From the NCBI RefSeq assembly GCF_029581275.1, contig NZ_CP120742.1:5456501-5520500 (forward strand): a stretch of DNA of 64,000 nt. The letters run 5' to 3'. How positions within the stretch are numbered: position 1 is the stretch's first letter; each line of letters begins with the position of its first letter. Source of the DNA: Micromonospora sp. WMMD1155 (GTDB lineage Bacteria; Actinomycetota; Actinomycetes; Mycobacteriales; Micromonosporaceae). Of this stretch, positions 6,305 through 27,059 are shown in pieces. The notes beneath the pieces were generated by a model that saw only the letters and a list, made by a program, of their open reading frames with translations, was not told the origin of the DNA and made no database searches. Position numbers and translations under genes: made by a program.

Positions 6305-9184
6305 ATGACATCTGGGCTGGAAAATGCGTCAACGGGCCCGCGCTTCGTCGGGCGGCAACCACAGTTGGCGCGTATCGAGAGAGCCCAGGCCGCTGCGCTG
6401 AGTCGTGGCCGGCAGATGGTTTGCGAGGTGGTCGGTGAGCCGGGCATCGGCAAGACCCGGTTCGTCCACGAGGCACTGCGACGATGCGTTCCCACCGTTC
6501 CGTGGGCGGTCGGCACGTGCGCGCCGGACGAACGAGGGGTTCCCTTCCACGTCTTCCGACAGGCCTTCACGACGGGGCAGCCACACCGACGCGGGCTACG
6601 CCTCGGGCGGTTCACCGGGGAGACCTGGATGGAGTCCGGCGCGGCGCCACCGGGGCCGGCGCGGGCGTCGGACGCCCAACGGTTCCGCACCAACCAACTG
6701 GCCCGTCGGCTGATCGGCCTGGCGGCGCGGGACGGTCTGACGCTGGTCCTCGACGACCTGCACTGGGCGGACGCCTCCTCCGCCGGCCTGATCGCCCACC
6801 TCCTGCGCTACCCGGTGCCCGCCCCCCTGCTGCTCGTGCTCGTCTACCGCCCGCGGCAGATGGCGACGCCGATGCCGTTCGGGCCACCGGATTCGCGCGA
6901 GCAGGCCGACGCGGAGCCGGCCTCACACGACCGGATCGAGCTCAGCCCGCTCAGCCTCGCCGAGATGGCGCCTCTGCACCCACACGCCGACCAGGTGGAG
7001 CTGCGGGCACGGTACGACGTGACCGGCGGCAATCCCGGTTACCTGACGGCGCTGCCGGGCGGCCCCGCACCAGACCACACCGACCCGATCCGGGAGGCGC
7101 AGGGCGCCTGGTTGTCCGACGCCGTGGTGGCCGTGCTGCGCCGCGAGTGGTCGGGCCTGCCGCCCGTCGAGCTGGCCTGTCTGCGGGCCGGAGCGGTCGT
7201 CGACGCGCCCTTCGCCGCCGACCTGCTCGCCGCGATCGCGCAGGTGCCGACGCCACGTGCGGTGGAGGCCGGCTGGCGGTTGGTCCGACTCGACCTGATC
7301 CGCCGCGTCCCCGGCACCGGACGATTCGCCTTCCGGCACCCGGTGCTGCGGATGGCCGTCGCACAGGACACCGACCCGGCGTGGCGGGCCGATGCCTCCG
7401 CGCGGGCGCTCACCGCGCTCGTCGAGCTGGGCGCGCCCCCCGCCGACCAGGCCCGCTACGCCGAACGCCTGCTCGCCCTGCCGAACGGCCGCTGGGCCGA
7501 ACGCTGCGTCGACGTGCTCTGCCAGGCCGCCCAGGAGATCCGCCGCGAGACACCGGACCTGGCCATCCGCTGGCTGCGGTTGGCGTTGCGGGCGCTGCGG
7601 CCGACGGCCGGCTCGACGCAGCGTCGCCGAGACGTGGCCCTCGCGCTCGCCCAGATCACCGGGGAGGCGGGCGACCTGGCCGAGAGCAGGGCCCTGCTCC
7701 AGGAGATCGTGCCGCTGTTCCCCGCCGACCCGCAGGGACGACGGGCGCAGGCGGTCGCGCTCTGGGCGCGAGTGGAACGCCTGCTCGGCAACTACCCGGA
7801 GGCGGCGGCGATCAGCCGGCGCGAGCTGGCCGCCCTGCCCGCCGACACCGCACCCGGTGTCGGCTACCGACTCGCCACCGAGATCGGCGTCGCCGGCATC
7901 CTGGGCGGCCGCCGACCCGCCGTAGGTCTGCCCGACGCGCTCACCGGAGACCGCGACGGCCCCGCCGCCGACCGGGCCGGCCTGCTCGCCGTCCGCAGCC
8001 TCGCCGCCGTGCACGACGGCGCACTCGACGACGCGCGGGGCCTGCTCGACGCGGGCGTCCGGATCGTCGACGCCTTGCCGGACCGGGACGTCCGCGACCA
8101 CCCCGACTGCCTCACCGCGCTCGGGCTGACCGAGTTGTACCTCGAACGGCAGGCCGACGCGGCGCGGCACCTCGACCGAGGGCTGACCCTCGTGCGGGCC
8201 TCGCACCGCGACGACGGGCTCTGCCAACTGCTGCTCGGTCGCAGTCAGGTCGCCTACCACGGCGGTCAGCTGACCACGGCCATCGGGCTGGCCACCGAGG
8301 CGGGCATCGTCGCCCGGCGCATCGGCAGCCATCACCTGCTCAGCTTCGCCCTGGCGTTCGAGGCGGAGGCGACGGCCTGGCGTGGTGGCCCCCGCGACGA
8401 CGACCGGGCGGTGGCGCTGGCCCGCAGCGCCGTCGGAATCGCCACCGACCTCGCCACCTGGTGTGGCCGTACCGCCGTACTGGCGCTGGCCACGGCGGCA
8501 CTGCTGTCCGGTGATCCGGCGACCTGTGCCGAGCTGGTGCGCTCGGCCGGCGGTGACAACCGGCTGAGCCGCCTGCAGACCACCCTCCGGCCGATGTGGT
8601 TCGAGCTGCTCTGCGCCGCCGCGCTCGCCGCCGGTGAGGTGACCGAGGCCGAGCGGCAGGCGCGACAGGCGATGACCGAGGCGGAGCAGAGCGGCCTCGC
8701 CGGGCAGCGGGGCTTCGCCGAGTCGGCGTACGGCGAGGTGCTGCTCGCCCGGGGTGAGGTGTCCGCCGCGTTGCGGCACCTGGAGAGCGCGGCCGACCTG
8801 TTCCGCGCCGGTGGGATGGCGTTGCGGCGCAGTCTCGCGCTGGCCTCCCTGGCGCGGGCCGCCGAGGCCGAGGGCCAGGCGGGCCGGGCGGCGCGGGCCC
8901 GCCGCCGGGCTCTGGAACTGGCCGGGTGGTGCGGGACGGAACGGGTCGGCCTTCGGCTGGCCCGCCCGGTCGGCCCGGTCGAGGTGGCCGCCCTGACCGA
9001 CCGGGAATGGCACATCGCCCGGCTGGCGGCGACCGGAGCCACCAGCCGACTGATCGGGCGGCAGTTGAACATCAGCCCCCGCACGGTGGAGGCGCACCTG
9101 ACCCGGATCTACCGCAAGGCAGGTGTCGCCTCCCGGTCGGGGCTGGTCGCCTGGGTCGCCCGGCTCGATGACACCGATCGGTGA
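6305..9184 (+). CDS. LAL-family LuxR transcriptional regulator (AAA ATPase + HTH)
   Basis: A 959-residue large ATP-binding LuxR (LAL) regulator. FVGRQPQLARIE opens the ATPase domain. Walker A is GEPGIGKTRF (residues ~44-53), and Walker B is LTLVLDDLHWADASS. The middle (about 380-880) is a tetratricopeptide-like helical region rich in Ala and Leu. The C-terminal LuxR helix-turn-helix (about 897-955) reads LTDREWHIARLAATG ... ISPRTVEAHLTRIYRK. ATG 6305 gives a start just before the GPRFVGR motif, where homologues usually begin; the longer in-frame start at 6089 adds non-homologous residues. LAL proteins are typical pathway-specific activators in actinomycete natural-product clusters, so this is the likely activator of the RiPP genes that follow. 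Confidence 0.92.
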   Translation: MTSGLENASTGPRFVGRQPQLARIERAQAAALSRGRQMVCEVVGEPGIGKTRFVHEALRRCVPTVPWAVGTCAPDERGVPFHVFRQAFTTGQPHRRGLRLGRFTGETWMESGAAPPGPARASDAQRFRTNQLARRLIGLAARDGLTLVLDDLHWADASSAGLIAHLLRYPVPAPLLLVLVYRPRQMATPMPFGPPDSREQADAEPASHDRIELSPLSLAEMAPLHPHADQVELRARYDVTGGNPGYLTALPGGPAPDHTDPIREAQGAWLSDAVVAVLRREWSGLPPVELACLRAGAVVDAPFAADLLAAIAQVPTPRAVEAGWRLVRLDLIRRVPGTGRFAFRHPVLRMAVAQDTDPAWRADASARALTALVELGAPPADQARYAERLLALPNGRWAERCVDVLCQAAQEIRRETPDLAIRWLRLALRALRPTAGSTQRRRDVALALAQITGEAGDLAESRALLQEIVPLFPADPQGRRAQAVALWARVERLLGNYPEAAAISRRELAALPADTAPGVGYRLATEIGVAGILGGRRPAVGLPDALTGDRDGPAADRAGLLAVRSLAAVHDGALDDARGLLDAGVRIVDALPDRDVRDHPDCLTALGLTELYLERQADAARHLDRGLTLVRASHRDDGLCQLLLGRSQVAYHGGQLTTAIGLATEAGIVARRIGSHHLLSFALAFEAEATAWRGGPRDDDRAVALARSAVGIATDLATWCGRTAVLALATAALLSGDPATCAELVRSAGGDNRLSRLQTTLRPMWFELLCAAALAAGEVTEAERQARQAMTEAEQSGLAGQRGFAESAYGEVLLARGEVSAALRHLESAADLFRAGGMALRRSLALASLARAAEAEGQAGRAARARRRALELAGWCGTERVGLRLARPVGPVEVAALTDREWHIARLAATGATSRLIGRQLNISPRTVEAHLTRIYRKAGVASRSGLVAWVARLDDTDR

Positions 9185-9335: not shown

Positions 9336-10352
9336 ATGCTGGGCAGAAGATCCGTCAGGAGCCCGCGTACCCTCGCCGCGCCGGTGCCGGTGGCCGCCGC
9401 CGTGACGGCGCTCCTCGTGCTGGCCGGCTGTGGTGGTGAGCCGGTGGACGCGGCCGCCCCCGCGACCGAGGGTCCGGCCACGTTCGGTCGGGAGCGGGCG
9501 GCGCTGGTGCTCACCGCCTTCGACCAGGCCGACTCGGCCGCCTCGGTGGCCGGAGACGTCGAGGCGCTGCGGACCCAGGAGGTTCCGCCCTCGCTGGACC
9601 TCAGCATCGCCGCGGTCCGCCGGGCCACCTACAACCAGCGTCCGCAACCGTCGTTCCAGCACATCAACCCGGCGTTCGCGGTGCCGCCCGGAGACCCGGC
9701 CTGCTTCCTGGTCACGGCCACCCTCAAGCTGAGCGGCGCGGAACTGGCGCCCACCGACGTCAGCCAGTTCGTGCTCGGCGACGACGGCCAGTGGAAGCTC
9801 AGCCACAACGTCCAGGTCACCCAACCCTCGCTGGTGGTCGCGCGGAGCATCGACGGCCGACCCGCCACGCAGGGTGGTACGGCATTGGACGAGACCAGCC
9901 GTCGGGCTCTCGCCGCCGAGGTCTTCGCCCGCAGCATCGGGTCCACCACGAGCAACCGTTCCCTCGTCGCGTCGAGTCCGTTGCTCGACGGCCAGTTCGC
10001 CGGCGGCTGGGAGATCTACGGCCAGCAGCTCGCCGGTGCCGGCGCGGCGGCGCAGCGGACGATGGACCGGGCCGAATGGTCCGACTGCGCGGTCGCGGTG
10101 CCGACCGGCACGCTGACCTTCCTGACGATCCACGCCACCGACACCCTGCGCCCGGCACCCGGCGGTCCGGCCACCGTCCAGATGGTGCCGCAGAGCCCGG
10201 ATCTGATCGCCACCGGCCACCGCCAGACGATCAGCGGAAAATCGATCCGGGTGAACCGGGTGGAGACGTTCCTGCTGCTCGTACCGACGCAGGTCACCGG
10301 CACGTCGGTGCTGGGACTCAACGACACCGCGCTCACCGTCACCGCCGGCTGA
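9336..10352 (+). CDS. Putative secreted lipoprotein at the head of the RiPP cluster
   Basis: A 338-residue predicted lipoprotein. The N-terminus has arginines, a hydrophobic core and the lipobox VLAGC with the acylated Cys at residue 32, followed by GGEPVD. The rest is a soluble mixed alpha/beta sequence without recognised catalytic motifs; it resembles actinobacterial lipoproteins of unknown function. ATG 9336 has a GGAGG ribosome-binding site five bases upstream (9326-9330), which rules out the longer frame. It lies between the LAL regulator and the cyclodehydratase in the same direction. A role in self-protection or export at the cell surface is possible but only inferred from position. 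Confidence 0.8.
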   Translation: MLGRRSVRSPRTLAAPVPVAAAVTALLVLAGCGGEPVDAAAPATEGPATFGRERAALVLTAFDQADSAASVAGDVEALRTQEVPPSLDLSIAAVRRATYNQRPQPSFQHINPAFAVPPGDPACFLVTATLKLSGAELAPTDVSQFVLGDDGQWKLSHNVQVTQPSLVVARSIDGRPATQGGTALDETSRRALAAEVFARSIGSTTSNRSLVASSPLLDGQFAGGWEIYGQQLAGAGAAAQRTMDRAEWSDCAVAVPTGTLTFLTIHATDTLRPAPGGPATVQMVPQSPDLIATGHRQTISGKSIRVNRVETFLLLVPTQVTGTSVLGLNDTALTVTAG

Positions 10353-10494
10353 CCCGACCATCGGCCGCCCCGGTCGCCGCCGACGGCAGAAACCGGTGGC
10401 ATCACTCGGATCGGACACCGGTGGACCGCGACGATGGCAGCAGTCGTGATCGCCGGCGGGGCCGGCGGTGCGGCCACCAGGCTCGGGAGGAACC

Positions 10495-12771
10495 ATGTGG
10501 CGTCCGCGCTTCCGATCGGACTACGCGCAGGTACGCCTGCCCGACGGTCCGCTGGTGGTGCTGGGGGAGACCCGCAGCCTGCTCATCGACGACCCGGTCG
10601 CGGCGGACCTGGCCGACCAGCTCGACGGCGTCGAGCCGTTGGCCGACGTGGTGACCCGGCTGGCCACCCGGCACCCGGTCACCGCCGTCGCCTCCGCTCT
10701 CGCCCGGCTGCGCGACCACGGCCTGCTGGTGTCCGGTCCGGCGGGCACCTCGACGGCCGAGGCCGCCGGATGGGACGCCCGGGGTGTCCCGCCCGAGGCC
10801 GGGCACCGGTGGATGGCGCGGGGAGCGGTCACCATCGTGGACCTCGGGGCACCCCGGGTGGCGGAGACCGCCGACGCGCTGCGCGCCCTCGGGCTCGCCG
10901 TCACGGTGGTCGGGCCGGACGAGACGGACGACGATCCGGCCGCCGCTCAGGTGCTGGTGCTGCCGTCGTCCATGCTCGATTCCCGACTGGCGCCGATCAA
11001 CGACCGCCACCTGGCCGCCGGTCGTGCGTGGACCCTGGCCCGGCCACACGGCAACGTCATCCTCCTCGGCCCGCACCTGGTGCCGGGGCGCACCGGCTGC
11101 TGGGCCTGCCTGCGGCAACGGTGGCAGGAGAACGAACAGGTCAACGCCTTCCTCGACGGGCAGGACCTGGCCGGTCCGCTGCCGCAGCCCGGCCGGGCGG
11201 TCCTACCCGGCCTGGCCACCACGGCCGCCGGGCTGCTCGCCACCGAACTCGCCGTGCTCGCCGTCCGGGGTTCGTCCCCCCGCCTCACCGGTCGGATGGT
11301 CGCCCTGGACACCCGGGACCTGAGCACGGAGAGCCACCAACTCGTACGCCAACCGCAGTGCGCCGCCTGCGGCGACCCGGACCTCGTCGGCAAGGCCGAA
11401 CCACGGATCGACCTGCCGCCGAGCGGCGTCCAGCCCTGCCGGGCCGAGGACTCCCGCTCCCGGGATCCGGCCGAGGCGTACGCCGCCCTCGCCCACCACG
11501 TCAGCCGGTACCTGGGGGTGGTGAGTCGACTGACCCCGTTGGAGACGACCGACAACGGTGTCACCCACACCTACTCGGCCGGGCACAACTTCGCCCAGCC
11601 CCGCCAGCTCGCCGGGTTGCGCCGCAACCTGCGCGGGCAGAGCGGCGGCAAGGGTCGCACCGACCTCCAGGCGCGGATGAGCGCGATCGGGGAGGCGGTG
11701 GAACGCTACTGCGGGGTGTGGCGCGGGGACCGTCCGGTGCACCGGGCGACGTACCGGCAGCTCGGCCCGGACCGCGCGGTGCACCTGCGGGAGGTGCTGC
11801 TGTTCTCGCCCCGGCAGTACGCCGAGCGGGACCGGCTCAACGGCGACCTGGGCCACCTGCACCGCATCCCCCGCCCGCTGGCTGACGAGGTGGAGCTGGA
11901 CTGGACCACCGGCTGGTCGCTGACCCGGCGGACGCCACGCGAGCTGCCCGCCGCCTACTGCTGGTACGGGCATCCGGAGTTGACCGGGCTCGGGGTGTGC
12001 TCGGCCGACTCGAACGGCTGCGCGGCGGGCGGCAACCTGTCCGAGGCGATCCTGCAGGGCTTCTGCGAACTCGTGGAGCGGGACAGCGTCGCCCTGTGGT
12101 GGTACCACCGTTCACGGATGCCCGGGGTGGACCTCGCCTCGTTCGCCGACCCGTGGACGGCCGCCTGCGTCGACCATCACGCCACCGTCCTGGGCCGCGA
12201 GCTGTGGGCCCTCGACCTGACCGCCGACCTCGGCGTACCCACGTTCGCCGCGGTGTCCCGGCGGGCCGACGGCGGGCCGGAGGACGTCCTGGTCGGCTTC
12301 GGCGCGCACCTGGACGCGCGGGTCGCCCTGACCCGGGCGTTGACCGAGGTCAACCAGTTCCTGCCCGCCGTTCCCGGGCCGACCTCGGCGCGCAACCGGT
12401 ACGGCGTCGACGATCCGGACACCGCCCGCTGGTTCGGCACGGTACGGGTGGCCGATCAGCGGTGGCTGACCCCGGACGCCACCCGAGCGCCCCGCACCGC
12501 CGCCGACCACCCGCCGCTGACCACCGGGGACGTCGGGGACGACGTGCGGCAGTGCGTACGCCGGGCGGAGCTGGCCGGCCTGGAGGTGATCGTCGTCGAC
12601 CAGTCCCGTCCGGACGTCGACCTGTCGGTGGTGAAGGTCGTGGTGCCGGGCCTGCGGCACTTCTGGCGTCGGCTCGGTCCCGGGCGGCTGTGGGACGTGC
12701 CGGCCCGGCTCGGCCGGGGTCCGCTGGCCGCCGACGAGACGGCGGCCAACCCGCTGAACGTCTTCTTCTAG
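10495..12771 (+). CDS. Fused TOMM leader-binding/E1-like and YcaO cyclodehydratase
   Basis: A 758-residue fusion of the two halves of an azoline-forming cyclodehydratase. Residues ~1-85 form a winged-helix RiPP recognition element, followed by an E1/ThiF-like region with a CxxC pair (C202/C205 in GCWACLRQ; C289/C292 in QCAACGDP) that would bind one zinc. Residues ~340-758 are the YcaO (SagD-like) domain, with the ATP/Mg motif SAIGEAVERYCG (E400, E403, R404), the segment SNGCAAGGNLSEAILQGFCE, LTRALTEVNQF, and the C-terminal tail NPLNVFF. Such enzymes use ATP to convert Cys/Ser/Thr of a bound precursor to thiazolines/oxazolines. ATG 10495 follows a GGGAGG site. The gene is directly upstream of the dehydrogenase that would oxidise the product. 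Confidence 0.95.
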   Translation: MWRPRFRSDYAQVRLPDGPLVVLGETRSLLIDDPVAADLADQLDGVEPLADVVTRLATRHPVTAVASALARLRDHGLLVSGPAGTSTAEAAGWDARGVPPEAGHRWMARGAVTIVDLGAPRVAETADALRALGLAVTVVGPDETDDDPAAAQVLVLPSSMLDSRLAPINDRHLAAGRAWTLARPHGNVILLGPHLVPGRTGCWACLRQRWQENEQVNAFLDGQDLAGPLPQPGRAVLPGLATTAAGLLATELAVLAVRGSSPRLTGRMVALDTRDLSTESHQLVRQPQCAACGDPDLVGKAEPRIDLPPSGVQPCRAEDSRSRDPAEAYAALAHHVSRYLGVVSRLTPLETTDNGVTHTYSAGHNFAQPRQLAGLRRNLRGQSGGKGRTDLQARMSAIGEAVERYCGVWRGDRPVHRATYRQLGPDRAVHLREVLLFSPRQYAERDRLNGDLGHLHRIPRPLADEVELDWTTGWSLTRRTPRELPAAYCWYGHPELTGLGVCSADSNGCAAGGNLSEAILQGFCELVERDSVALWWYHRSRMPGVDLASFADPWTAACVDHHATVLGRELWALDLTADLGVPTFAAVSRRADGGPEDVLVGFGAHLDARVALTRALTEVNQFLPAVPGPTSARNRYGVDDPDTARWFGTVRVADQRWLTPDATRAPRTAADHPPLTTGDVGDDVRQCVRRAELAGLEVIVVDQSRPDVDLSVVKVVVPGLRHFWRRLGPGRLWDVPARLGRGPLAADETAANPLNVFF

Positions 12772-12785: not shown

Positions 12786-12827
12786 ATGACCACGGTGGTG
12801 GGACCGGCCGGTCGGCGGTCGTCGTGA
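12786..12827 (+). CDS. 13-codon mini-ORF coupled to the SagB-type dehydrogenase gene
   Basis: ATG 12786 is preceded by a purine-rich site (GAGGGG about 10 bases upstream) and encodes MTTVVGPAGRRSS before a TGA at 12825-12827. That TGA overlaps the GTG start (12824) of the dehydrogenase gene. The dehydrogenase GTG itself has no good ribosome-binding site, so the mini-ORF may exist to deliver ribosomes to it. It could be a translational-coupling leader with no product function; a peptide role cannot be shown. Confidence 0.35.
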   Translation: MTTVVGPAGRRSS

Positions 12828-14287
12828 GCGGCTCCGTCGGCGGTCCGCTGATTCAGGAGTCGTACCGGCTGCGCCGCGACGCGGAGCTGCGGCTCGGCGA
12901 GGACGGTTCACTGACCCTGCGGCAGACCCGCTTCCAGCTCACCCTGGAACGACCGGGCATGGGTCGGCGGGCACTGCTGCTGCAACTCGCCGCCGACTGG
13001 GTCAGCGACGTCGAGGTCGGTCGGCTGATCAGCGGTCTGGAGGGGGAGAGCAGGGTGCTGGCCGCGCAGCTGCTCCTGCGCCGGTTGCTCGCCCACTCCT
13101 GGCTGGAACGCCGCCTCCAGGTCGACGACCGGGCGCTGCTCGACCTGGTGCCCACCGGACTCGGGCGGGGCAGCCTGCCGGAGAGCCGCCCGCACCCACC
13201 CGGGGTCCGTCACCGGCTCTCCCGCTTCGCCACCCTCGCCCACGAACGGGGTCGGCTGGTGGCCACGTCGCCGCTGAGCACCCTCGCTGTCGGCTGCGCC
13301 GACGTCGCGCTCGGTGCGGTCCTGGTCGCCGCCGTGCCGGGCGTCGGACCGGACACGGTGGCGCGCACGCTCGGGGTGCGGCCGGCGGCCGCCGGCCGGG
13401 TGCTCGACGAGCTGGCCACCGCCCGGATCCTGGTCACCGAGGCCGAGTTCGAGGCGGAGTGCGACGAGGCGCCGCTGGCCTACTGGTCACCCGAGGAACT
13501 GCGTCTGCACCACCGCTCCCGGGCCGGTCGGCACGCGCTGCCGGTCGGGGGCACCTACCGGATGCGGGAGCGGTTCGAGCCACAACCGTTGCGCCGTCCC
13601 TACGACGGGGCTCGCGCGATCGAGTTGCCGCTGCCGGATCTGGCCACGATCGCCAAGGTGGAGCCCGCCTTCAGTCAGGTCGTGGCGGAGCGGCGCAGCG
13701 TGCGCGAACACGACGACTCAGCGCCGCTGCCGGTGGAGCGGCTGGCCGAGTTCCTGTACCGCTCGCAGCACACCAGCGCCGTCGGCGAGGCCGGTGGTCA
13801 GGAGGTCGGTCACCGGCCCTACCCGGGTGGCGGCGGGGTCTACGAGCTGGAGATCTATCCGCTGGTCGCGCGGTGCGACGGGCTCGACCCGGGGCTCTAC
13901 CACTACGACGCGGTCGGGCACCGGCTCGAGCCGGTCGCCGGTTGGGGGGCGGCCGCCGACCGGTTGCTGGCGTACGCCCGGGCGGCCGGCGCCATGCCTC
14001 GGCCACCGCAGACGGTCCTGGTGGTCACCGCCCGGGTCCAGCGGCTGATGTGGAAGTACGAAGGGATGAGCTACGCCATGATCCTCAAGGACGCGGGAGT
14101 GCTGACCCAGCAGATGTACCTCGTCGCCACCGCCATGGAGTTGGCGCCGTGCGCCCTCGGCGCCGGGGACTCGCAGGCCTTCGCCGAGTTGTCCGGGCTC
14201 GATCCGCTGGTCGAACCGAGCGTGGCGGACTTCCTGCTCGGCTCGCGCCGCGCCGCCGGTCCACCCGGGACGGGGGGCCGGCCATGA
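12824..14287 (+). CDS. SagB-type FMN-dependent azoline dehydrogenase
   Basis: A 487-residue protein of the SagB/ThcOx (nitroreductase-like) TOMM dehydrogenase family. The N-terminal ~250 residues form the leader/winged-helix part; the C-terminal part (about 270-480) is the flavin domain. It includes VVAERRSVREHDD, the loop HRPYPGGGGVYELEIYPLV and the WKYEGMSYAMILKDAGVL segment, where K411-Y412 matches the catalytic Lys-Tyr pair known from McbC-type enzymes. These enzymes use FMN to oxidise azolines to thiazoles/oxazoles. The GTG start overlaps the stop of a 13-codon mini-ORF, and the stop overlaps the ATG of the next gene (ATGA). It works with the cyclodehydratase just upstream. Confidence 0.93.
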   Translation: MSGSVGGPLIQESYRLRRDAELRLGEDGSLTLRQTRFQLTLERPGMGRRALLLQLAADWVSDVEVGRLISGLEGESRVLAAQLLLRRLLAHSWLERRLQVDDRALLDLVPTGLGRGSLPESRPHPPGVRHRLSRFATLAHERGRLVATSPLSTLAVGCADVALGAVLVAAVPGVGPDTVARTLGVRPAAAGRVLDELATARILVTEAEFEAECDEAPLAYWSPEELRLHHRSRAGRHALPVGGTYRMRERFEPQPLRRPYDGARAIELPLPDLATIAKVEPAFSQVVAERRSVREHDDSAPLPVERLAEFLYRSQHTSAVGEAGGQEVGHRPYPGGGGVYELEIYPLVARCDGLDPGLYHYDAVGHRLEPVAGWGAAADRLLAYARAAGAMPRPPQTVLVVTARVQRLMWKYEGMSYAMILKDAGVLTQQMYLVATAMELAPCALGAGDSQAFAELSGLDPLVEPSVADFLLGSRRAAGPPGTGGRP

Positions 14288-15093
14288 AGTTCCGACGGCA
14301 GGCACTGCGCCAGTTGGAGGCACCCGAGCAACTGGACCGGGCGGTCCGGCTGACCACCGTGCCGCACTGGCTGGCCACCGCCGCACTGGTCATCGTCGTG
14401 GTCGCCGCGGGCGTCTGGTCGGTACGCACCGTGGTGCCCCGCACCGTCGAGGCGGCCGGGGTGCTGATCCACTCCAACGGGATCTCCGCCCTCGACGCGA
14501 TCGAAAGCGGTCAGGTCACCAAGGTCTGGGCGTCCCCCCACCAGCGGGTCACCAAGGGCACTCCGCTCTACAGCCTGCGCACGCTGGACGGCAAGGTGGT
14601 GGTGGAGAACGCGCCGGGTGACGCGTACGTCGTGGTGTGGCTGGTGTCGGAGGGGGAGATCGTCACCCCGGGCACGCACCTGGCCGATCTGGAACGGCTC
14701 GACACCGCGGGGGACGCGTTGCAGGCCGTCGTGTACGCGCCGGCCGTCGCCGCTCCGCTGCTGCAACCAGGTGTACCCGTCGAGGTGGCCGCCGCGGCGG
14801 CACCACGCAACGTGTTCGGCACCCTGGCCGGTCAGGTGGCCACCGTCGGCGCGTTCCCGGAGACCGAGGCGTCGCTACGGGCCTTCCTGGGCACCGGTCC
14901 GGACGTCCGGCGGCTGCTGGCGCACGGCAGCGTGATCCGGGTGACCGTCGCCCTGGTCCCGGACCCGGCCGCTCCGGGCGGTCTGCGCTGGACGAAGACC
15001 CCGCCGCCGTTCCAGCTCAACTCGGCCAGCGAGGTCACCGCCTGGTTCACGGTGGACGAGGAACACCCGATCGACTGGTTGCTGCGGCGATGA
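14284..15093 (+). CDS. NHLM-type bacteriocin secretion membrane-fusion (HlyD-like) protein
   Basis: A 269-residue HlyD-like adaptor. It has a short cytoplasmic start, one membrane anchor (WLATAALVIVVVAAGVWSV, residues ~20-42), then the lipoyl/barrel-sandwich element GQVTKVWASPHQRVTKGTPLYSL and a beta-rich extracytoplasmic domain. This is the shape of the NHLM bacteriocin system secretion protein, the partner of the two ABC proteins downstream. In a Gram-positive host it would link the exporter to the cell wall rather than to an outer membrane. ATG 14284 overlaps the stop of the dehydrogenase and its own TGA overlaps the next ATG, so this is a tight operon. The much longer upstream frame is antisense-like shadow. 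Confidence 0.85.
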   Translation: MKFRRQALRQLEAPEQLDRAVRLTTVPHWLATAALVIVVVAAGVWSVRTVVPRTVEAAGVLIHSNGISALDAIESGQVTKVWASPHQRVTKGTPLYSLRTLDGKVVVENAPGDAYVVVWLVSEGEIVTPGTHLADLERLDTAGDALQAVVYAPAVAAPLLQPGVPVEVAAAAAPRNVFGTLAGQVATVGAFPETEASLRAFLGTGPDVRRLLAHGSVIRVTVALVPDPAAPGGLRWTKTPPPFQLNSASEVTAWFTVDEEHPIDWLLRR

Positions 15094-17276: not shown

Positions 17277-17301
17277 CCGACGACGAGCCGAGGAGACACC
17301 G

Positions 17302-20300: not shown

Positions 20301-20334
20301 CCGGCAGTCGGAGGGGCAGCCCGCGACGGGCTGA
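17302..20334 (+). CDS. NHLM-type second ABC transporter (permease/ATP-binding) with large N-terminal domain
   Basis: A 1010-residue ABC half-transporter. The first ~400 residues are a long N-terminal region that in this family contains a cyclic-nucleotide-binding-like fold but no peptidase. The export domain spans about 430-720. The ATPase has Walker A IVGPSGCGKSTLLRLLL (~783), signature LSVGQRQRVLIARAL and Walker B IIFLDEATSALDN (~910). It resembles the TIGR03797-type NHLM bacteriocin ABC protein that always accompanies the C39-bearing one, probably as a heterodimer. ATG 17302 follows AGGAGA (17291-17296); the gap to the upstream stop is 25 bases. It ends nine bases before the convergent regulator gene. 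Confidence 0.93.
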   Translation: MSGAVEEPPTGDLIGFCADGVRQVCRLDGPVAGWLVTGGEADLFAVRRTGMSPSRRHHVARLPAGGLVPTSTAIGAWQLILVPLPGAELRGLSQRHLSLLERHVRLGRPADEGPSHRARTAATELVAAVDLVLVTIADALRHGQAPREASTLSGREIVSLAQGSALTSTGGAWWLRSAGGQLRRNDGGPVEMSGEHELLLIAERDWVVAESACAVESHGSWDLLVAGQLRSAVDQHVARLLRMVESRIEEADAALLSAVRRRRQVDAAVLAAAARRSIGVIGASGAVPVPDVEAGFDRYGRAASVLEVVTEGMGSPINEPADRGRAPLGDRAAVRAVSSASSLFLREVRLPERWWRRDLGSLVGWRAGDDPERAVAVPLVFRRGRYHQVDPDTRARSPISATVAATFATEATQVQAPLPPVARMRHLLRAGFVGAGRDVRGLLFAAACVALLGLGVPLATGEVLGQLARQGEVDGLFGFVALMLSAAVVAGLVGVVQNLRLLRLDGRLQSGAQLAIWDRLLRLPARFFTGRSSGEIANSMLGISFVGEALSALLPQLVSAAATVAVTLGMLLVVEPVLGLWGAGIVAVTLLTFGAFAVLIVRRQRSALPAEHRAAAMTNQLLGGIIKIKVAAAEARAHARWSEVAASARAALQRVRQSQAGLVAFATVLPIAGQLVLFAVLMGPLSGRIAPADFFILNVGFAMLLGALLVLVSAGVEVIAAVPRLRSLNDILRADPEARPDRVDPGELRGEIALHRVTFAYQPDEPPVLVDIDLHVRPGEFVAIVGPSGCGKSTLLRLLLGFERQQQGAVLYDGQDLSELDVHAVRRQCGVVLQDGQLFAGSVRDNICGAGSFPLDQVWEAARMAGLADDLEALPMGMSTMVPFGGGTLSVGQRQRVLIARALAPRPRIIFLDEATSALDNRTQEVVTRSTASMAATRLVIAHRLSTVRAADTIVVLDAGRIVQRGTYDELMDQPEGLFHRLARRQLLTEPDRSDAAAQSRQSEGQPATG

Positions 20335-20342
20335 CCGTCGGC

Positions 20343-21089
20343 TCAGCCGTTGTCGATGACCGTGCCGTCCTCCAGGCAGACGTCCGTGTCGAGGTGGTTC
20401 TCCAACAGCTCCGCCACGTGCGTCTCGGCCTGGTTCTCCGCGGCGAGCCGGAACGCCTCGGTGAGCACGTTGACCACACCCTGGGTCAGCAACAGGGTTT
20501 CCCGGTCGAGGTCGGCCCAGGACGCCCCGGCGCCGTTGCGCACCAGCTCCGGCGCGAGCGCCAGCAGTCGGGCGGTGACGGCGGCGACCAGCTCGTCGGC
20601 GACCGGCCGGAGGCTGTCCAGCACCTCACTGAGGGTCTGCAGCGCCGGCACCGTGCCCACCCGTACCCGATGCAGGTCCAGGGCGGCGCGCAGCGGGCGC
20701 GGCCGCACGGTGCGGACGGTGCCGTCGGTGGTCCGGCCGATCACGCCGTGGCGGGTCAGCGCGTGGGCCAGCGCGGGGCGGTCGGCGGTGAGCCGTTGCA
20801 GCATCGCGGTCAGCCCGTCGGGCGCGTCGTCACTGGCCCGGACCCCGAGCATCGCCTCGATGGAGACCAGGTTGAAGCCCTGCCGTTGCAGGGCGAGGAT
20901 CGCGTCCAGTCGGCGGACGTGGGAGTCGTCGTAGTAGGCGGCCCGACCGTGGCGCACCGGCGGAGGCAGCAGCCGCCGAGCCTGGTGCGCGCGGATGTTG
21001 CGAGGCGACATCCCGACCTTGCGGGCGAGTTCCTCCACGCTGTACCCGGCCGGGCCGCCGGGCGTCGTCGTCACCTGGTCGATGGTCAC
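20343..21089 (-). CDS. MerR-family transcriptional regulator
   Basis: A 248-residue regulator with an N-terminal MerR winged helix: YSVEELARKVGMSPRNIRAHQ, then a wing RHGRAAYYDDSHVRRLDAI and LQRQGFNLVSIEAML. The C-terminal ~150 residues are helical, without metal-binding cysteines, so the effector is probably an organic ligand or the peptide product. GTG 21089 is chosen because a GGAGG site (reverse complement of 21095-21099) lies five bases before it; longer frames start upstream without a site. It is divergent from the precursor genes and convergent with the exporter, so it is well placed to control the 21.2-21.4 kb promoter region. A role as a cluster regulator is inferred. Confidence 0.85.
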   Translation of the reverse strand: MTIDQVTTTPGGPAGYSVEELARKVGMSPRNIRAHQARRLLPPPVRHGRAAYYDDSHVRRLDAILALQRQGFNLVSIEAMLGVRASDDAPDGLTAMLQRLTADRPALAHALTRHGVIGRTTDGTVRTVRPRPLRAALDLHRVRVGTVPALQTLSEVLDSLRPVADELVAAVTARLLALAPELVRNGAGASWADLDRETLLLTQGVVNVLTEAFRLAAENQAETHVAELLENHLDTDVCLEDGTVIDNG

Positions 21090-21212
21090 GGTGGCCTCCG
21101 GCAGCGATCGGTGGCGGAACATGGCACCCCGTCGAACCGCTCTCAGCACGGGCGGTCCGTTGATCGCAGCCTAGGTGCGCACACCGAGTGGTAACAGACG
21201 AGGAATTACTAC

Positions 21213-21865: not shown

Positions 21866-21966
21866 TGACAGGAAATGCTTGATTGCCGAACCTCGATCTT
21901 TTTAGCGTTCTCCACACAGAAATCGACCGCCCACCCCGGAGCGTTCCCCAGGAGAGGACCCAAACG

Positions 21967-22368: not shown

Positions 22369-23535
22369 ATGACTGACACGACCGAAACCATCGCTTTCCG
22401 GTCCGGCACCTACCGGACGGCGAGCGTGGAGCAGACCTGGGAACGGGTCGGCGTGATGCTCGACCGATTCCGGATCACCCGGGTCGCGGACATCACCCGA
22501 CTCGACGAGATCGGCCTACCGGTGCACGTCGCCTACCGGCCGGTCGGAGCCACCATGGCGGTGAGCGTCGGCACCGGCGCCACGGCGACGCAGTCCCGGG
22601 TCAGCGCGGTCATGGAGAGCATCGAGTCCTGGCATGCCGAGAACCTCCGGCCGGGGACCGTCGTGCGGTCCCCGGCCGCGGCGCTCGACCTGCCGTACGA
22701 CGTTCGGTGGCTACACCTGGCCGAGCGGTCGCCGCTGACCCCCGCCGTCGAGTTGGACTGGGTGGCCGGCCGTGGGCTGGTGACCGGTGCGCAGTGCCTG
22801 GTGCCGCGCGCCACGATCGAACTCGACTTCACCGTCCGACGGGGCTGGGACCGCGCGCTGTTCACCCCCAGCAGCAACGGCCTGGCCACCGGCAACACGT
22901 TCGCCGAGGCCAGCCTGCACGCCCTGCTGGAGGTCGTCGAACGCGACTGCATCGCCCCGTACTGCACCTCCCCGTTGGCCGAGCGCACCTACGCCGACCC
23001 GGGCACCGCCACGAACCCGATGACCCGCACGGTGCACGACGCGTTGCTGCAGGCGGGCTGCTGGGTGGAGGTCTGCGACATCACCAACGCGATCGGTGTG
23101 CCCTGCTACGCCGCCTCGATCTGGTCGGAGGACCTGCCGGTCACCTTCGGCGGCTTCGGCTGCCACGTGGACCCGCAGATCGCCGTCGGCCGGGCCATGT
23201 CGGAGGCAGCCCAGTCCCGGCTGGTCATGGTCTCCGGAGCACGCGACGACATCGACGCCACCGCGTACCACGACGTGGGTGCCGCGCCGGTGCCGCCCCC
23301 GACCGTCGACCGGCCCGTCCAGCCGGTCCGCCGGGACCTCCCGCCCACCGGCGACGTGACCGAGGTGCTCCGCGAGTTGGCGTCCCGCGTGCAGCGGATC
23401 ACCGGCGTCGAGCCGTTCAGCGTCGACCTGACGCACGACGACATCGGCATCGCGGTGAGCAAGGTGTTCGCCCCCGGCCTGCGCATGTTCGACGAGCGGG
23501 CCCTGAGTACCCGACCAGGAGTGCCCCGTGACTGA
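22369..23535 (+). CDS. Stand-alone YcaO protein, TfuA partner (probable thioamide-forming)
   Basis: A 388-residue YcaO-domain protein without an E1-like part. Recognisable ATP-binding elements are RVSAVMESIESWHAEN (E83, E86), NGLATGNTFAEASLHALLEVVERDC and IAVGRAMSEAAQSRL, ending VSKVFAPGLRMF. The stop overlaps the start of a tfuA gene by eight bases. YcaO-TfuA pairs are established in backbone thioamidation: methanogen McrA, thioviridamide-type peptides and the thiopeptide saalfelduracin. The likely job is ATP-driven activation of a peptide amide and replacement of O by S. The gene is separate in type and position from the cyclodehydratase YcaO at 10.5-12.8 kb. The substrate is inferred to be precursor 2, which it follows. 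Confidence 0.92.
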   Translation: MTDTTETIAFRSGTYRTASVEQTWERVGVMLDRFRITRVADITRLDEIGLPVHVAYRPVGATMAVSVGTGATATQSRVSAVMESIESWHAENLRPGTVVRSPAAALDLPYDVRWLHLAERSPLTPAVELDWVAGRGLVTGAQCLVPRATIELDFTVRRGWDRALFTPSSNGLATGNTFAEASLHALLEVVERDCIAPYCTSPLAERTYADPGTATNPMTRTVHDALLQAGCWVEVCDITNAIGVPCYAASIWSEDLPVTFGGFGCHVDPQIAVGRAMSEAAQSRLVMVSGARDDIDATAYHDVGAAPVPPPTVDRPVQPVRRDLPPTGDVTEVLRELASRVQRITGVEPFSVDLTHDDIGIAVSKVFAPGLRMFDERALSTRPGVPRD

Positions 23536-24922
23536 CGTCGTCTTCATCGGTCCGAGCCTGCCGATCGACGAGGTCCGCCGGTTGCTGCCCGACGCGGTGG
23601 TGCTGCCGCCCGTCGCGCACGGCGACCTGCTCCGCCTGGACGTCGTCCCCGGCGACCGGGTCCTCGTCATCGACGGGTTCTTCCTGCAACACCCGCCGGT
23701 CCGCCACCGGGAGATCCTCGACCTGCTCGACCGTGGGGTCGCAGTGGCCGGCGCCGCGAGCATGGGCGCGCTGCGCGCCGCGGAGCTGTGGCCGTTCGGG
23801 ATGCGGGGCGTGGGCGAGGTGTTCCAGCTCTACCGCGACGGCGTCGTCACCGGCGACGACGAGGTGGCGGTGGTGCACGGGCCCGCCGAGGAGGGTCACC
23901 GCACGCTGAGCGAGCCCCTGGTGAACCTCCGGGTCCAGCTGCGTCGCGCCGTCGCCGCCGGAGTGCTCAGCGACGCCGAGGCCGCGCTGCTGCTGGACAG
24001 CGCTCGGGGGTTGCCGTTCCGACGGCGGTCGTACCGCGCGTTGGAGCGCACCGCGCCACCCGAGCTGGCGGCCGTGGTGGACCGCTTCGTGACCTGGCAC
24101 CGGCGCAACCCCTGGGACGCCAAGAGCGCCGACGCCCGGCTGCTGCTGTCGATGGCGGCGGACGACGCCCCCGAGCTGTCCCCGGCGCACGGCGGCGACC
24201 AACCGATCGACAACCTGCACACCCGCTTCCTGGACAGCTGGCGATCCCGCTTCGCCGGGGAGTCGATCGGCGGGCACTGGGTCAGCGACCGGGAGGCCGC
24301 GGCGGTGCTCATGCTGCTGCACCCCGAGGAGCCCGCCTGGCACCGACGGGAGGTGCTGGCCGGGCTGGCCGGAGTCGACATCGCCGACCCGACCGCCGAG
24401 GAACGCGCGTACGAGGTGGCGCGTGGGCGAGGACTGACCACCGTCCTGCCGACCGGGCACGACTGGCTGACCGACTCCGAACGGGGCCTCGACGACCGCG
24501 AGGCGGTGCTGCGGGTGTTGGTGCGGGCGTTCGGCACCACCCCACACCGCAGCCTGGCGCTGTGGATGGTCGCGGCGCCGCTGCGTACCCCCGCACTGCT
24601 CGCCGCGGCACGGCAGGTCGCGGCCACCGCGGCGGCGCTGAACGAGACCCTGCCCCGGAAGACCGGGCACCGTCGACCGGGTGGCCGGCTGCACTTCCGG
24701 ACCGGTGTCGTCGACGCGTGCTTCGCCGCGCTGTGGGGCTGCGACACCGACGGGCTGGAGGCGGCGGCATGGGACCGGGGCTTCGTCGACCTGATGGCGT
24801 TCCGGTACGCCGCCGAACCACTCGTGGCGTACGTCAAGGCGTTCGGCGCTCCCCGGCTGCCGGAGGTGGCGCAGCACGCGCCGGAGGACACCCTGGCCGG
24901 TTCCGCGGCCCGGGTCGGCTGA
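23528..24922 (+). CDS. TfuA-like protein
   Basis: A 464-residue protein whose N-terminal ~200 residues are a TfuA domain: VVFIGPSLP, VLVIDGFFLQHPPVRHREIL, then the family signature VAVAGAASMGALRAAEL and GVGEVFQLYRDG. TfuA partners a YcaO enzyme and is thought to supply or present the sulfur for thioamide formation. The remaining ~260 residues are mainly helical, with repeated Arg/Ala/Leu-rich segments and no motif that I recognise, making this longer than a minimal TfuA. The GTG start lies within the end of the ycaO gene (eight-base overlap), so the two are co-translated. The family assignment is confident; the function of the extension is unknown. Confidence 0.9.
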   Translation: MTDVVFIGPSLPIDEVRRLLPDAVVLPPVAHGDLLRLDVVPGDRVLVIDGFFLQHPPVRHREILDLLDRGVAVAGAASMGALRAAELWPFGMRGVGEVFQLYRDGVVTGDDEVAVVHGPAEEGHRTLSEPLVNLRVQLRRAVAAGVLSDAEAALLLDSARGLPFRRRSYRALERTAPPELAAVVDRFVTWHRRNPWDAKSADARLLLSMAADDAPELSPAHGGDQPIDNLHTRFLDSWRSRFAGESIGGHWVSDREAAAVLMLLHPEEPAWHRREVLAGLAGVDIADPTAEERAYEVARGRGLTTVLPTGHDWLTDSERGLDDREAVLRVLVRAFGTTPHRSLALWMVAAPLRTPALLAAARQVAATAAALNETLPRKTGHRRPGGRLHFRTGVVDACFAALWGCDTDGLEAAAWDRGFVDLMAFRYAAEPLVAYVKAFGAPRLPEVAQHAPEDTLAGSAARVG

Positions 24923-24932: not shown

Positions 24933-27059
24933 ATGAGCGGCACCGTCAAGGCGGCACTGATCTACCCCCCACTGACCGATCCCACCTCGGGATACCACTC
25001 CCTGAACTACCTCGACTCGTACGCCCGCGCGCAGGGGCACCGGCCGGCAGAGATCATCGACGCGAACATCGAGGCGTTCCACCACTCGTACACCCCGTCG
25101 GCGTACGAGTGGTTGCAACGGGAGCTGTCCCGCCTCTCGGTCGACGACCTCAGCGGTCCGGACGCGCTGATGGCCCGGGCGAACCTGCTCAACCTGCCCG
25201 AACCCGACCCGGAGCGGCTGCGCCGGTCGATCGGGGTGCTCCAAGACCCCACCCTGTTCTACGACTACCGGCACTACCAGGACGCCGTCGAGGGCGTCAT
25301 CTCCTGGATGGACACCCTCGGCGCGGTCGGGTTCCCCGGGCAGTTCCACGCAGGCTTCCGGCTGCACCCACCGCCGATGATCTCGATCGGCTCGGTGGCC
25401 GCGCTGACCGACGAGGCGCTGCTCGGGAGACTCAACCGGCCCTTTCAGCCGTACTACGAGGACGTGCTGATCCCGCGGCTCGCCGCCGGCGGCAACCAGG
25501 TGATCGGGATCAGCGCCACCTACCAGTGGCAACTGCCGTTCGCGCTCTGGATCGCCCGACTCGTCCGGAAGGCCTGCCCGGACGTCTTCCTCATCGCCGG
25601 CGGCACGGAGATCTCCGACGTCTGGAAGTGCGCCAGCAAACCGGAGTACGTCTTCCAGGTGCTCGCCGACTTCGACGCGATAGTGGTCGGCGAGGGGGAG
25701 AGCGCGTACACGGAGATCCTGGACGCGGTGGCGACCGGCACCCTGCCCGCCGGGCATCCCAACGTCCGCCTGCACCCCAGGTACGGCCGCCAACGTCAAC
25801 TGCCGCTGCGCTACGAACGCCTGGCGCAGGTGCCCGTCCCGGACTTCTCCGGCCTGCCCTGGGATCTCTACCTCAGCCCGGAGAGGTTCGTCTACTACTC
25901 GCCGACCCGAGGCTGCTACTGGAACAAGTGCACGTTCTGCGACTACGGCCTGAACACCGACGGACCCACCAGCCCGTGGCGGCAGGACACCGTGGACACG
26001 ATGATCGCGGACGTCACCGAGCTGTCGAAGTTCGCCAAGTTCATCTACTTCTCGGTGGACGTGCTCGCGCCCGCGACGATCCTGCGGTTCGCCGAGCGTG
26101 CCGTCGAGAAGGGGTTGGACTTCCGCTGGGGCGCCGAGATCCGGTTGGAGAAGTACTGGTCCGACGAACGGTGCGAACTGTTGCGCCGCAGCGGCTGCGT
26201 GGCCGTCTCGGTCGGCTTCGAGTCCGGGAACCAGCGCATCCTCGACCTGATCGACAAGGGCACCAAGCCGGAGCAGGTACGCCGCACCATGACCGCGATG
26301 ACCAAGGCCAACATCGGCGTACAGATGATGGGCTTCACCGGCTTCCCCACCGAGACCCGCGAGGAGGCGCTGGACAGCGTCACGTTCCTGCGCGACAACC
26401 CGGACCTGTGGACCCTCGGCGGGCTCGGCGACTTCATGCTGACCCCGGGCGCCATCGTCGCGAAGGAGCCGGAGCGGTTCGGCATCACCAACGTGCGGCC
26501 GGTGGAGGGCTCCGACATCGTCCGGATGCTGACGTACGACGAGCCGGTGACCGAGGCGGCGCAGGAGGAGGTCGCCCAGGCCAAGGCCGGTCTCAACCCC
26601 GGGCACTTCCACCGTCCGTGGCTGGGCAGCACCGACACCCCGCACACCTTCTTCTACCACGACCGCTACGGCACGGCGGTACGCGGCGTACTCGCCCACG
26701 ACCGGGTCCGGCACGACACCGACGAGCACACCCGGTTCCTCGCCAACGGCACCTTCGTGGACCGTGACGACGAGCAGGTCTGGGAGGCGTACCGGCGGAT
26801 GCGCTCCGACGACCAGGACGGCGTCCCGGGCGACCTGCCGGCGGACCGGCACCTGTTCCGCCGGGCCGACGGCCAGGTGTACGCGCTCAACCGCAGCAGC
26901 CGACTGTTCCTGGATCTCTTCACCGCGCCGCTGACCCTCGCCGAGGCGCAGCGTCGACTCTGGATCGTCGAACCCACGGTCGCCGACCGGGTCTGGCGGA
27001 CCTTCATCGGGCAGCGCCTGATCCGCCGCCACCAACTCCCGAACGAGGCGACGCGGTGA
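24933..27059 (+). CDS. B12-type radical SAM protein with C-terminal PqqD-like region
   Basis: A 708-residue radical SAM enzyme. The first ~300 residues resemble the cobalamin-binding/linker region of B12-radical SAM proteins (GISATYQWQLPFALWIARLV, VFLIAGGTEISD, IVVGEGESAYTEIL). The iron-sulfur motif is RGCYWNKCTFCDYG, with C328, C333 and C336: a CX4CX2C spacing rather than CX3CX2C. The SAM-binding barrel continues through WGAEIRLEKYW, SVGFESGNQRILDLIDKG and MGFTGFPTET. The last ~70 residues (YALNRSSRLFLDLFTAPLTL) look like a PqqD-type recognition element. It probably methylates or otherwise alters carbon centres of a precursor. It follows tfuA by ten bases with a GAGGAGGAG site and closes the operon. 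Confidence 0.88.
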   Translation: MSGTVKAALIYPPLTDPTSGYHSLNYLDSYARAQGHRPAEIIDANIEAFHHSYTPSAYEWLQRELSRLSVDDLSGPDALMARANLLNLPEPDPERLRRSIGVLQDPTLFYDYRHYQDAVEGVISWMDTLGAVGFPGQFHAGFRLHPPPMISIGSVAALTDEALLGRLNRPFQPYYEDVLIPRLAAGGNQVIGISATYQWQLPFALWIARLVRKACPDVFLIAGGTEISDVWKCASKPEYVFQVLADFDAIVVGEGESAYTEILDAVATGTLPAGHPNVRLHPRYGRQRQLPLRYERLAQVPVPDFSGLPWDLYLSPERFVYYSPTRGCYWNKCTFCDYGLNTDGPTSPWRQDTVDTMIADVTELSKFAKFIYFSVDVLAPATILRFAERAVEKGLDFRWGAEIRLEKYWSDERCELLRRSGCVAVSVGFESGNQRILDLIDKGTKPEQVRRTMTAMTKANIGVQMMGFTGFPTETREEALDSVTFLRDNPDLWTLGGLGDFMLTPGAIVAKEPERFGITNVRPVEGSDIVRMLTYDEPVTEAAQEEVAQAKAGLNPGHFHRPWLGSTDTPHTFFYHDRYGTAVRGVLAHDRVRHDTDEHTRFLANGTFVDRDDEQVWEAYRRMRSDDQDGVPGDLPADRHLFRRADGQVYALNRSSRLFLDLFTAPLTLAEAQRRLWIVEPTVADRVWRTFIGQRLIRRHQLPNEATR

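Follow-up and report, generated by a model that had tools for sequence, protein, structure and literature searches.

A locus in Micromonospora sp. WMMD1155 brings together two YcaO machineries that are predicted to differ in chemistry, two NHLP-like precursors and one NHLM-type exporter. We favour, with moderate confidence, the reading of this locus as one RiPP operon with a shared exporter and two products, namely a polyazole that originates from preA and a peptide that originates from preB and is thioamidated and possibly also C-methylated, where azole, thioamide and C-methylation are all predicted from homology. Orthologues of the cyclodehydratase (at least 56% identity), preA and TfuA (at least 50%) occur together in 37 of 350 Micromonosporaceae genomes, so the conjunction of these genes is not due to chance. 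A single further genome lacks preA, the cyclodehydratase and a neighbouring lipoprotein jointly, and this pattern of gene loss suggests which enzyme may serve which peptide.

Gene content of the locus

The window is the whole stretch of DNA analyzed, 64,000 nucleotides in length. Each part named in a preliminary description of it is backed by family scans with Pfam and NCBIfam TIGR models (Table 1). The gene set common to other genera reaches from the lipoprotein gene (~9336) to position 27059 and in the window follows the order of Table 1 from the lipoprotein to the B12 radical SAM protein. The cluster start at 6305 proposed in that description had to be given up, as it falls within the gene of the large LuxR-type regulator. 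This protein is 65–88% identical and found at the same position in the three Micromonospora loci that extend to it (L056–L058); it is a probable regulator of the cluster in Micromonospora, where the genes may be co-regulated. The MerR gene is present in six collinear loci of other genera and was not seen in four divergent ones within the stretch examined.

Table 1. Features of the locus, with positions in the window.
Feature	Position	Strand	Basis
LuxR-type large regulator, AAA_16 + LuxR helix-turn-helix	6089..9184	+	Pfam AAA_16, GerE
Lipoprotein, DUF8094-type	9336..10352	+	PF26366 in annotated relatives
Fused leader-binding/YcaO cyclodehydratase, azoline-forming type	10468..12771	+	TIGR03604, TIGR03882 above cut-off
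SagB-type flavin dehydrogenase (predicted azoline to azole)	12824..14287	+	TIGR03605 above cut-off
HlyD-like NHLM exporter subunit, short form	14284..15093	+	TIGR03794, HlyD_3
NHLM ABC transporter with C39 peptidase (C39-ABC)	15090..17276	+	TIGR03796, Pfam Peptidase_C39
Second NHLM ABC transporter	17230..20334	+	TIGR03797
MerR-type regulator	20343..21149	-	Pfam MerR_1
preA, NHLP-like precursor, 120 aa	21455..21817	+	translation; putative core LDSSCACCCPCCCT after VVAG
preB, NHLP-like precursor, 124 aa	21967..22341	+	translation; putative core VAPIADNNVNIIAVLIL after VAGG
YcaO (YcaO-2)	22369..23535	+	Pfam YcaO; closest solved match 6pe3
TfuA with extra C-terminal, mostly helical domain	23528..24922	+	Pfam TfuA
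B12-type radical SAM protein	24933..27059	+	Pfam Radical_SAM; B12-binding under cut-off

In the azole half, both the fused cyclodehydratase (TIGR03604, 257.6 bits, cut-off 219.25; TIGR03882, 108.7 bits, cut-off 36.9) and SagB (TIGR03605, 158.4 bits, cut-off 78.4) exceed curated cut-offs, in line with their earlier naming. Residues 42–87 of the cyclodehydratase give a weak PqqD/RRE-like match (E 0.057), and orthologues suggest that the protein starts near 10495. The lipoprotein adjoins the cyclodehydratase in the loci that extend that far. Its start is likely at 9336 and its lipobox, by our reading of the sequence, would be LAGC. Hmmscan gave no Pfam family for the window protein; its relatives carry PF26366 in precomputed annotation, and one of them is named DUF8094.

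The second YcaO, encoded by a reading frame that overlaps that of TfuA, is probably of the TfuA-associated, thioamide-forming type. Its best solved match is 6pe3 (MJ1094; E 2.5e-28), which we take to be the archaeal YcaO of MCR thioamidation, and TIGR03266 outscores the SagD model (173.7 against 111.5 bits), each falling under its own cut-off. For the C-terminal domain of TfuA (residues ~225–445) no solved match stood out in a search with the whole model, which mostly weighs residues 1–225. The radical SAM protein placed with this pair scores 60.9 bits for Radical_SAM (cut-off 29.5), and its B12-binding match lies slightly under the cut-off (29.7 against 32.1). The cysteines C328-x4-C333-x2-C336 are invariant across 19 aligned sequences, and the structures most similar to the protein belong to cobalamin radical SAM enzymes. 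The RiPP C-methyltransferase model rSAM_ocin_1 (TIGR03975) scores 77 bits, short of its cut-off of 281.85, and the best model is PhpK-type, at 93.8 bits against a cut-off of 600. At the C terminus of this protein a predicted strand-strand-helix-helix-helix-strand order had prompted the idea of an RRE-like domain; this is not supported, as profile comparison with the N-terminal region of the cyclodehydratase gave a probability of 0.04 and Pfam and NCBIfam returned nothing.

The three-gene exporter is likewise recovered. C39-ABC scores above the TIGR03796 cut-off (901.7 against 853.3 bits), the second transporter slightly below that of TIGR03797 (685.9 against 709.4), and HlyD under that of TIGR03794 (126.1 bits, E 1.7e-36, cut-off 156.2) and over that of Pfam HlyD_3 (24.0 against 22.2). 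The start of the second transporter is uncertain and probably lies near 17305.

Two precursors with contrasting cores

Both precursors are conserved genes according to family genome scans and homologue searches, and they match the NHLP model TIGR03793 at scores under its cut-off of 50.9 bits (preA 31.9 bits, E 9e-8; preB 20.1 bits, E 4e-4). The leaders are paralogous and find each other at 27–42% identity. Two other candidates were rejected: a set of small plus-strand ORFs (42781–43902), considered as a precursor array, overlaps in antisense a minus-strand ORF whose product looks like a secreted enzyme, and ORF 21364–21882, considered as preA, is in the wrong frame.

The C-terminus of preA is a nearly fixed SSCACCCPCCCT. 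CCCPCC is present in 70 of the 74 preA homologues of a phmmer set; the uniformity of a separate preA set, picked by core motif, is not independent. The preB core, on the other hand, is variable and rich in Asn and aliphatic residues, and the one in the window contains no Cys, Ser or Thr. Asn followed by V, I or L occurs in all 31 distinct preB tails of the loci examined, a set from which matches below 40% identity were removed to exclude preA cross-hits; 18 of these tails are free of Cys, Ser and Thr and 13 contain at least one of them. Among 28 wider preB homologues, eight cores have no Asn and one sequence has no readable core, with core borders set by pattern rules in both counts. Three genomes of other genera (G263, G324 and G329) carry two copies of preB.

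Proposed pathway

These features are compatible with the following scheme. The fused cyclodehydratase would bind preA through its leader-binding part and convert cysteines, perhaps also Ser or Thr, of the preA core to azolines, which SagB may then oxidize to thiazoles or oxazoles. YcaO-2 and TfuA are predicted to thioamidate the backbone of preB, most likely at the conserved Asn-aliphatic motif or beside it. The B12 radical SAM protein might further alter this peptide, probably by C-methylation at an unactivated carbon. The common exporter, whose C39 peptidase presumably removes the leader, would cleave after VVAG or VAGG and export both peptides. With cleavage at these sites, the unmodified preA core LDSSCACCCPCCCT has a calculated MH+ of 1411.395, lowered by 20.026 Da per azole (1271.211 with seven), and the unmodified preB core VAPIADNNVNIIAVLIL one of 1762.047, which becomes 1778.024 with one thioamide and 1792.040 with a methyl group in addition. 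For the preA product, the lipoprotein encoded beside the azole genes may confer immunity or serve as a receptor.

Conservation of the two halves

Recurrence of the neighbourhood is borne out by the 37 genomes described above. Among the 350 Micromonosporaceae genomes no cyclodehydratase orthologue was found without a TfuA orthologue, and TfuA without cyclodehydratase was found in one genome (G168). In 101 relatives, cyclodehydratase and TfuA are found in the same 15 genomes. The opposite pattern, with the two halves always apart, was sought in both sets and not found. As the family scans scored 3, 4 or up to 12 candidates per genome, a missing match in them is weak evidence of absence; for G168, G301, G068 and G294 the search was repeated and every candidate scored. 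Two of the loci, L023 and L097, apparently represent one genome, and several named loci and genome handles overlap. In four of ten clusters from other genera (L091, L094, L097 and L098) the azole operon remains next to the precursors and YcaO-TfuA but in inverted orientation, showing that the linkage outlasts rearrangement.

With all candidates scored, G168 has no preA and no cyclodehydratase, the query finding just its YcaO-2. No lipoprotein match was obtained there either, in a search without its own positive control, though the query matches relatives in other loci. The genome keeps preB, YcaO-2, TfuA, both ABC transporters and SagB. Its radical SAM gene reads in two frames and its HlyD matches in pieces, which may reflect decay of the locus or errors in sequencing.

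A comparison of distances across 22 loci also addresses the partition of enzymes. Here preA distances follow those of SagB, HlyD and ABC1 when YcaO-2, TfuA or the radical SAM protein is removed (partial r 0.61–0.85), and the reverse test gives −0.33 to 0.47. For preB the values are 0.26 with ABC1 given TfuA and 0.37 with TfuA given ABC1. In a 10-locus subset preA correlates with SagB at 0.954 and with TfuA at 0.950, preB at 0.919 and 0.912. The distance test for the partition is fragile.

Alternative explanations

The preliminary description proposed two products or a two-peptide system, which is supported by conservation, the composition of the cores and the G168 genome. A two-component product would pair a near-invariant polythiazole with a species-variable, Asn-thioamidated and C-methylated partner, both made in one operon by orthogonal YcaO machineries from paralogous leaders. 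The two would act jointly, and the lipoprotein would be the receptor of the fixed component or protect against it; we regard this as a tentative possibility. Several observations count against the favoured assignment of one enzyme set to each peptide. In species with one of the 13 tails that contain Cys, Ser or Thr, preB could be a substrate of the azole enzymes, eight wider homologue cores have no Asn for the proposed thioamidation, the partition drawn from gene loss rests on G168 as one genome, and the intact SagB in that genome is not predicted by a simple split. The paralogy of the leaders, together with these 13 tails and the SagB retained without cyclodehydratase, would also fit both enzyme sets acting on both precursors to yield two mixed azole/thioamide peptides. 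We consider this unlikely, given that the preB core in the window offers nothing to cyclize and that G168 misses preA and the cyclodehydratase together.

It is also conceivable that preA alone becomes a product, bearing azoles and a thioamide, with preB as a helper, decoy or signal. Its core is far more conserved, and thiopeptides with YcaO-TfuA thioamides have been described (PMC8120280, as far as its main text goes). Nevertheless, preB persists with YcaO-2 and TfuA in G168 where preA is missing, possesses a cleavage-like motif of its own, shows an Asn-aliphatic core in every distinct tail, and is duplicated in three genomes of other genera, which makes a single product distinctly unlikely. 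Two independent neighbouring pathways with a common exporter and unrelated products appear very improbable. Separate occurrence of related halves is seen outside the cluster: cyclodehydratases of 36–42% identity in genomes without a TfuA orthologue (such as G047, G055 and G025), YcaO-TfuA pairs of ~40% without azole genes in the stretches examined (L024–L029 and L045), and, outside the family, YcaO and TfuA of 53–54% on a 5.5 kb contig of G068, a genome without preA. Within the family, however, 37 of the 38 genomes that have a TfuA orthologue keep the halves together, despite inversion. Their distances also run parallel (r 0.94–0.96), although shared species history yields the same and this comparison includes L101, whose 'preA' is a cross-hit to preB and which the 22-locus set omits.

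Relation to known systems

The types of part found here are already known. The accessible text of Malit et al. (2021, PMC8120280) describes TfuA clusters with a cyclodehydratase and flavin dehydrogenase, and that of Santos-Aberturas et al. (2019, PMC6511847) a network in which nitrile-hydratase-type precursors are associated with TfuA. The novelty suggested earlier is thereby narrowed: clusters that pair TfuA either with azole enzymes or with precursors of NHLP type are published, and what was not found described is the combination of parts with two precursors. A search of the openly available literature, with subscription papers and supplements outside its reach, returned no description of the cluster.

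The thiazole/oxazole-modified microcin clusters with NHLP and NHLM of Haft et al. (2010, PMC2887384) likewise have a fused cyclodehydratase (TIGR03882/TIGR03604), a dehydrogenase of SagB type, an exporter of the TIGR03794/03796/03797 kind and a leader to which those of the Micromonospora precursors are similar. They differ in that TfuA has 0 occurrences in the main text of that paper and in that the cores are called hypervariable there, whereas the Micromonospora preA core is nearly fixed and both Micromonospora precursors score below the NHLP cut-off. As reported in the accessible text, the Burkholderia NHLP-Burk tandem precursors (PMC2887384, PMC4603692) form a similar NHLP-type pair with a suggested two-peptide product; both of them belong to an azole cluster, however, while the preB core in the window lacks cyclizable residues and preB is accompanied by a B12 radical SAM protein as well as YcaO-TfuA. 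In the main text of PMC6511847 and PMC8120280, YcaO adjoins TfuA as in our case, nitrile-hydratase-type precursors appear in one network, some clusters include a cyclodehydratase with flavin dehydrogenase, and a B12 radical SAM protein is present in some. Split lanthipeptide dehydratases, which most of the azole-bearing clusters are said there to have, were not seen in the Micromonospora cluster, whose two-precursor NHLP and NHLM layout was not found in these main texts.

According to the accessible part of a preprint (PMC13174530), the YcaO-TfuA pair of the std cluster thioamidates Asn, a site that we propose as a parallel to preB; that cluster differs by its carbamoyltransferase/peptidase and MNIO enzymes and its SNKEWQE motif, and an azole half is not mentioned in this part. 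Sponge-symbiont NHLP RiPP clusters (PMC9426513) list YcaO, radical SAM, nitroreductase and TfuA-like enzymes, but in the accessible text these are spread over many families and other hosts, with no such layout.

Implications

That the preA core stays fixed while the leaders drift suggests that its target or function is conserved. Named Micromonospora strains carry the cluster, so that a knock-out combined with mass spectrometry is practical. Any product would extend the few characterized classes of YcaO-TfuA peptides, four of which are named in the accessible part of PMC13174530. With two YcaO machineries whose predicted chemistries differ and two paralogous NHLP-like leaders in what we read as one operon, the locus would offer a natural test of leader discrimination by RiPP enzymes.

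Organization and conservation of the cluster

The preliminary description had combined azole genes, a YcaO-TfuA pair, a B12-type radical SAM protein (rSAM), two NHLP-like precursors (preA and preB) and NHLM-type export genes in one RiPP cluster, and all of these parts were located in the window, which lies in a 7.34 Mb genome of one contig (G000).

Genes of the cluster and their positions in the window
Feature	Position	Remark	Basis
LuxR-type regulator	6089-9184	upstream of lipoprotein	
Lipoprotein	9336-10352		
Fused leader-binding/YcaO cyclodehydratase	10468-12771		family scan
SagB	12824-14287		family scan
HlyD	14284-15093		family scan
C39-ABC exporter (ABC1)	15090-17276		family scan
Second ABC transporter	to 20334		family scan
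MerR	20343-21149	opposite strand	family scan
preA	21455-21817		
preB	21967-22341		
YcaO-2	22369-23535		family scan
TfuA	23528-24922		family scan
B12-type radical SAM protein	24933-27059		family scan

Downstream of the cluster lie APH-like, GNAT, TPP-dependent enzyme and MFS genes (27144-33700). The first three were excluded from it because none of them was seen adjoining the cluster in 12 named Micromonospora loci (L011-L022), a comparison in which the MFS gene falls at the edge of the sequence covered. Among named loci, the same set holds the nearest YcaO-2 relatives (91-96%, all Micromonospora), so the window is taken to come from this genus. Small plus-strand ORFs at 42781-43902 (+) were rejected as a precursor array, being antisense to a minus-strand ORF (42549-44150 (-)) whose translation resembles that of a secreted enzyme carrying lectin-like repeats.

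Among 101 relatives, TfuA at no less than 78% occurs in 15 genomes and the cyclodehydratase at no less than 79% in the identical 15. Of 350 family genomes, 37 contain a full-length preA match, 38 TfuA at 50% or more and 37 the cyclodehydratase at 56% or more; all three co-occur in the identical 37 (27 of the own genus, 10 of others), so the check for halves that always occur separately came out otherwise. The 38th TfuA genome, G168, lacks a cyclodehydratase orthologue. Gene order is as in the window in six of the ten other-genus genomes, and in four (G317, G285, G312, G128) the azole operon is inverted yet adjacent. The cluster is real and conserved, and its best reading is a two-product RiPP operon. 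The G301 locus (L102) is a decayed relic: at 9138-9994 it has a preB fragment and a preA fragment broken over separate frames, and a genome-wide search gave no cyclodehydratase match.

Beyond these genomes, relatives of each half also occur on their own. Cyclodehydratases at 36-42% occur in genomes without a TfuA orthologue (e.g. G047, G055 and G025) and, in G017, as a second copy beside the full cluster. The G047 locus (L046) also encodes, at 6615-6794 (-), a candidate precursor of 59 aa that is rich in Ser and Cys and has a thiopeptide-like tail; it lies near a SagB relative and a cyclodehydratase at 40%. YcaO-TfuA pairs at about 40% occur in Streptomyces, Nonomuraea, Actinoallomurus, Actinomadura and Glycomyces; the 12-21 kb examined there contain short candidate precursors (46-76 aa) and no azole genes. 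Outside the family, a 5.5 kb contig of G068 carries YcaO/TfuA at 53-54%; a genome search found no preA, and cyclodehydratase-like matches elsewhere in this genome reach only 31-34%. Cyclodehydratase/SagB-like genes also stand close to YcaO-TfuA genes in two distant pairings, L032 (a Polyangium MAG; cyclodehydratase 28%, SagB 34%, YcaO 36%, TfuA 48%) and L053 (genome G031; TfuA 36%, YcaO 38%, SagB 35%). On a Legionella massiliensis contig (L034, 8203-12900), two tandem YcaO-like genes have TfuA-like matches on either side, by tblastn placement only.

A nearly fixed and a variable precursor core

Judged by sequence, preA and preB are paralogues: genome scans gave cross-matches at 27-42% identity, and both resemble the NHLP leader model while scoring under its cut-off. 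In translation, preA ends in ...VVAG-LDSSCACCCPCCCT and preB in ...VAGG-VAPIADNNVNIIAVLIL. At E <= 0.001 the protein database holds 74 preA homologues (named organisms: Micromonospora, Plantactinospora, Solwaraspora, Actinoplanes) and 28 preB homologues (Micromonospora, Solwaraspora).

Of the 74 preA homologues, 70 contain CCCPCC and 37 the exact string SCACCCPCCCT, with whole-protein identity down to 48-68% for most. Pairwise codon differences across 37 distinct preA coding sequences, picked via the core motif, amount to 1045 synonymous and 549 non-synonymous in the core, and to 12880 and 20430, respectively, in the leader.

The preB cores vary between loci. In all 31 distinct tails (at least 40% identity, loci compared) an Asn precedes V, I or L, and 18 of these tails contain no Cys, Ser or Thr; among the 28 wider homologues, eight cores without Asn and one unreadable core count against an Asn rule. 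Two preB copies with differing hydrophobic cores were seen in three other-genus clusters, L092 (G324), L093 (G263) and L095 (G329).

Probable assignment of enzymes to peptides

G168 is a natural experiment on which enzyme acts on which peptide. Its locus (L101) contains preB, YcaO-2, TfuA, rSAM, MerR, both ABC transporters and an intact SagB; preA, cyclodehydratase and lipoprotein are absent from the locus, and a search of the rest of the genome that scored all candidates did not find them. That preA and cyclodehydratase are missing together agrees with preA being the predicted azole substrate, and the retention of preB alongside YcaO-TfuA agrees with preB being the predicted thioamide substrate. 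The retained SagB does not fit neatly into this split. Moreover, in this single-contig genome the rSAM is split over two frames and HlyD is found only piecewise (L101, 6889-8963 and 17578-18096), which raises the chance that the broken genes reflect decay of the locus or sequencing error.

Distance comparisons over 22 loci, as partial r with the other gene set accounted for, lean weakly towards the same preA-azole and preB-thioamide assignment. preA tracks the azole/export genes (SagB/HlyD/ABC1) when the thioamide genes (YcaO-2/TfuA/rSAM) are accounted for (0.61-0.85), against -0.33 to 0.47 in the reverse case. For preB, the thioamide genes exceed SagB (0.61-0.68 versus 0.12-0.52), slightly exceed HlyD (0.67-0.75 versus 0.43-0.68) and have no clear lead over ABC1 (0.37-0.47 versus 0.26-0.54). 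In a 10-locus subset the preference almost disappears for both preA (0.954 with SagB, 0.950 with TfuA) and preB (0.919 and 0.912).

Relation to known systems

The portions consulted of several papers cover individual parts of this arrangement. NHLP azole clusters share the NHLM-type exporter with the window's cluster, and tandem NHLP-Burk precursors have been proposed as two-peptide products (PMC2887384, PMC4603692). Described TfuA clusters include some with NHLP-type precursors (PMC6511847) and others in which a cyclodehydratase and a flavin dehydrogenase accompany TfuA, mostly together with split lanthipeptide dehydratases (PMC8120280). In a Nakamurella cluster mentioned in a paper on dehydrazoles, a second YcaO adjoins TfuA (PMC10676384), and a 2026 preprint reports Asn thioamidation by a YcaO-TfuA pair (PMC13174530). 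The preliminary description named no product family that joins these parts, but TfuA with azole enzymes or with NHLP-type precursors is published; a layout of two precursors and two YcaO proteins in which one core is fixed and Cys-rich was found neither in the literature listings searched nor in the article portions consulted. Since supplements lay outside this search, the layout may already be in some published supplementary network figure. The two peptides may act together, one as a fixed and the other as a variable component.
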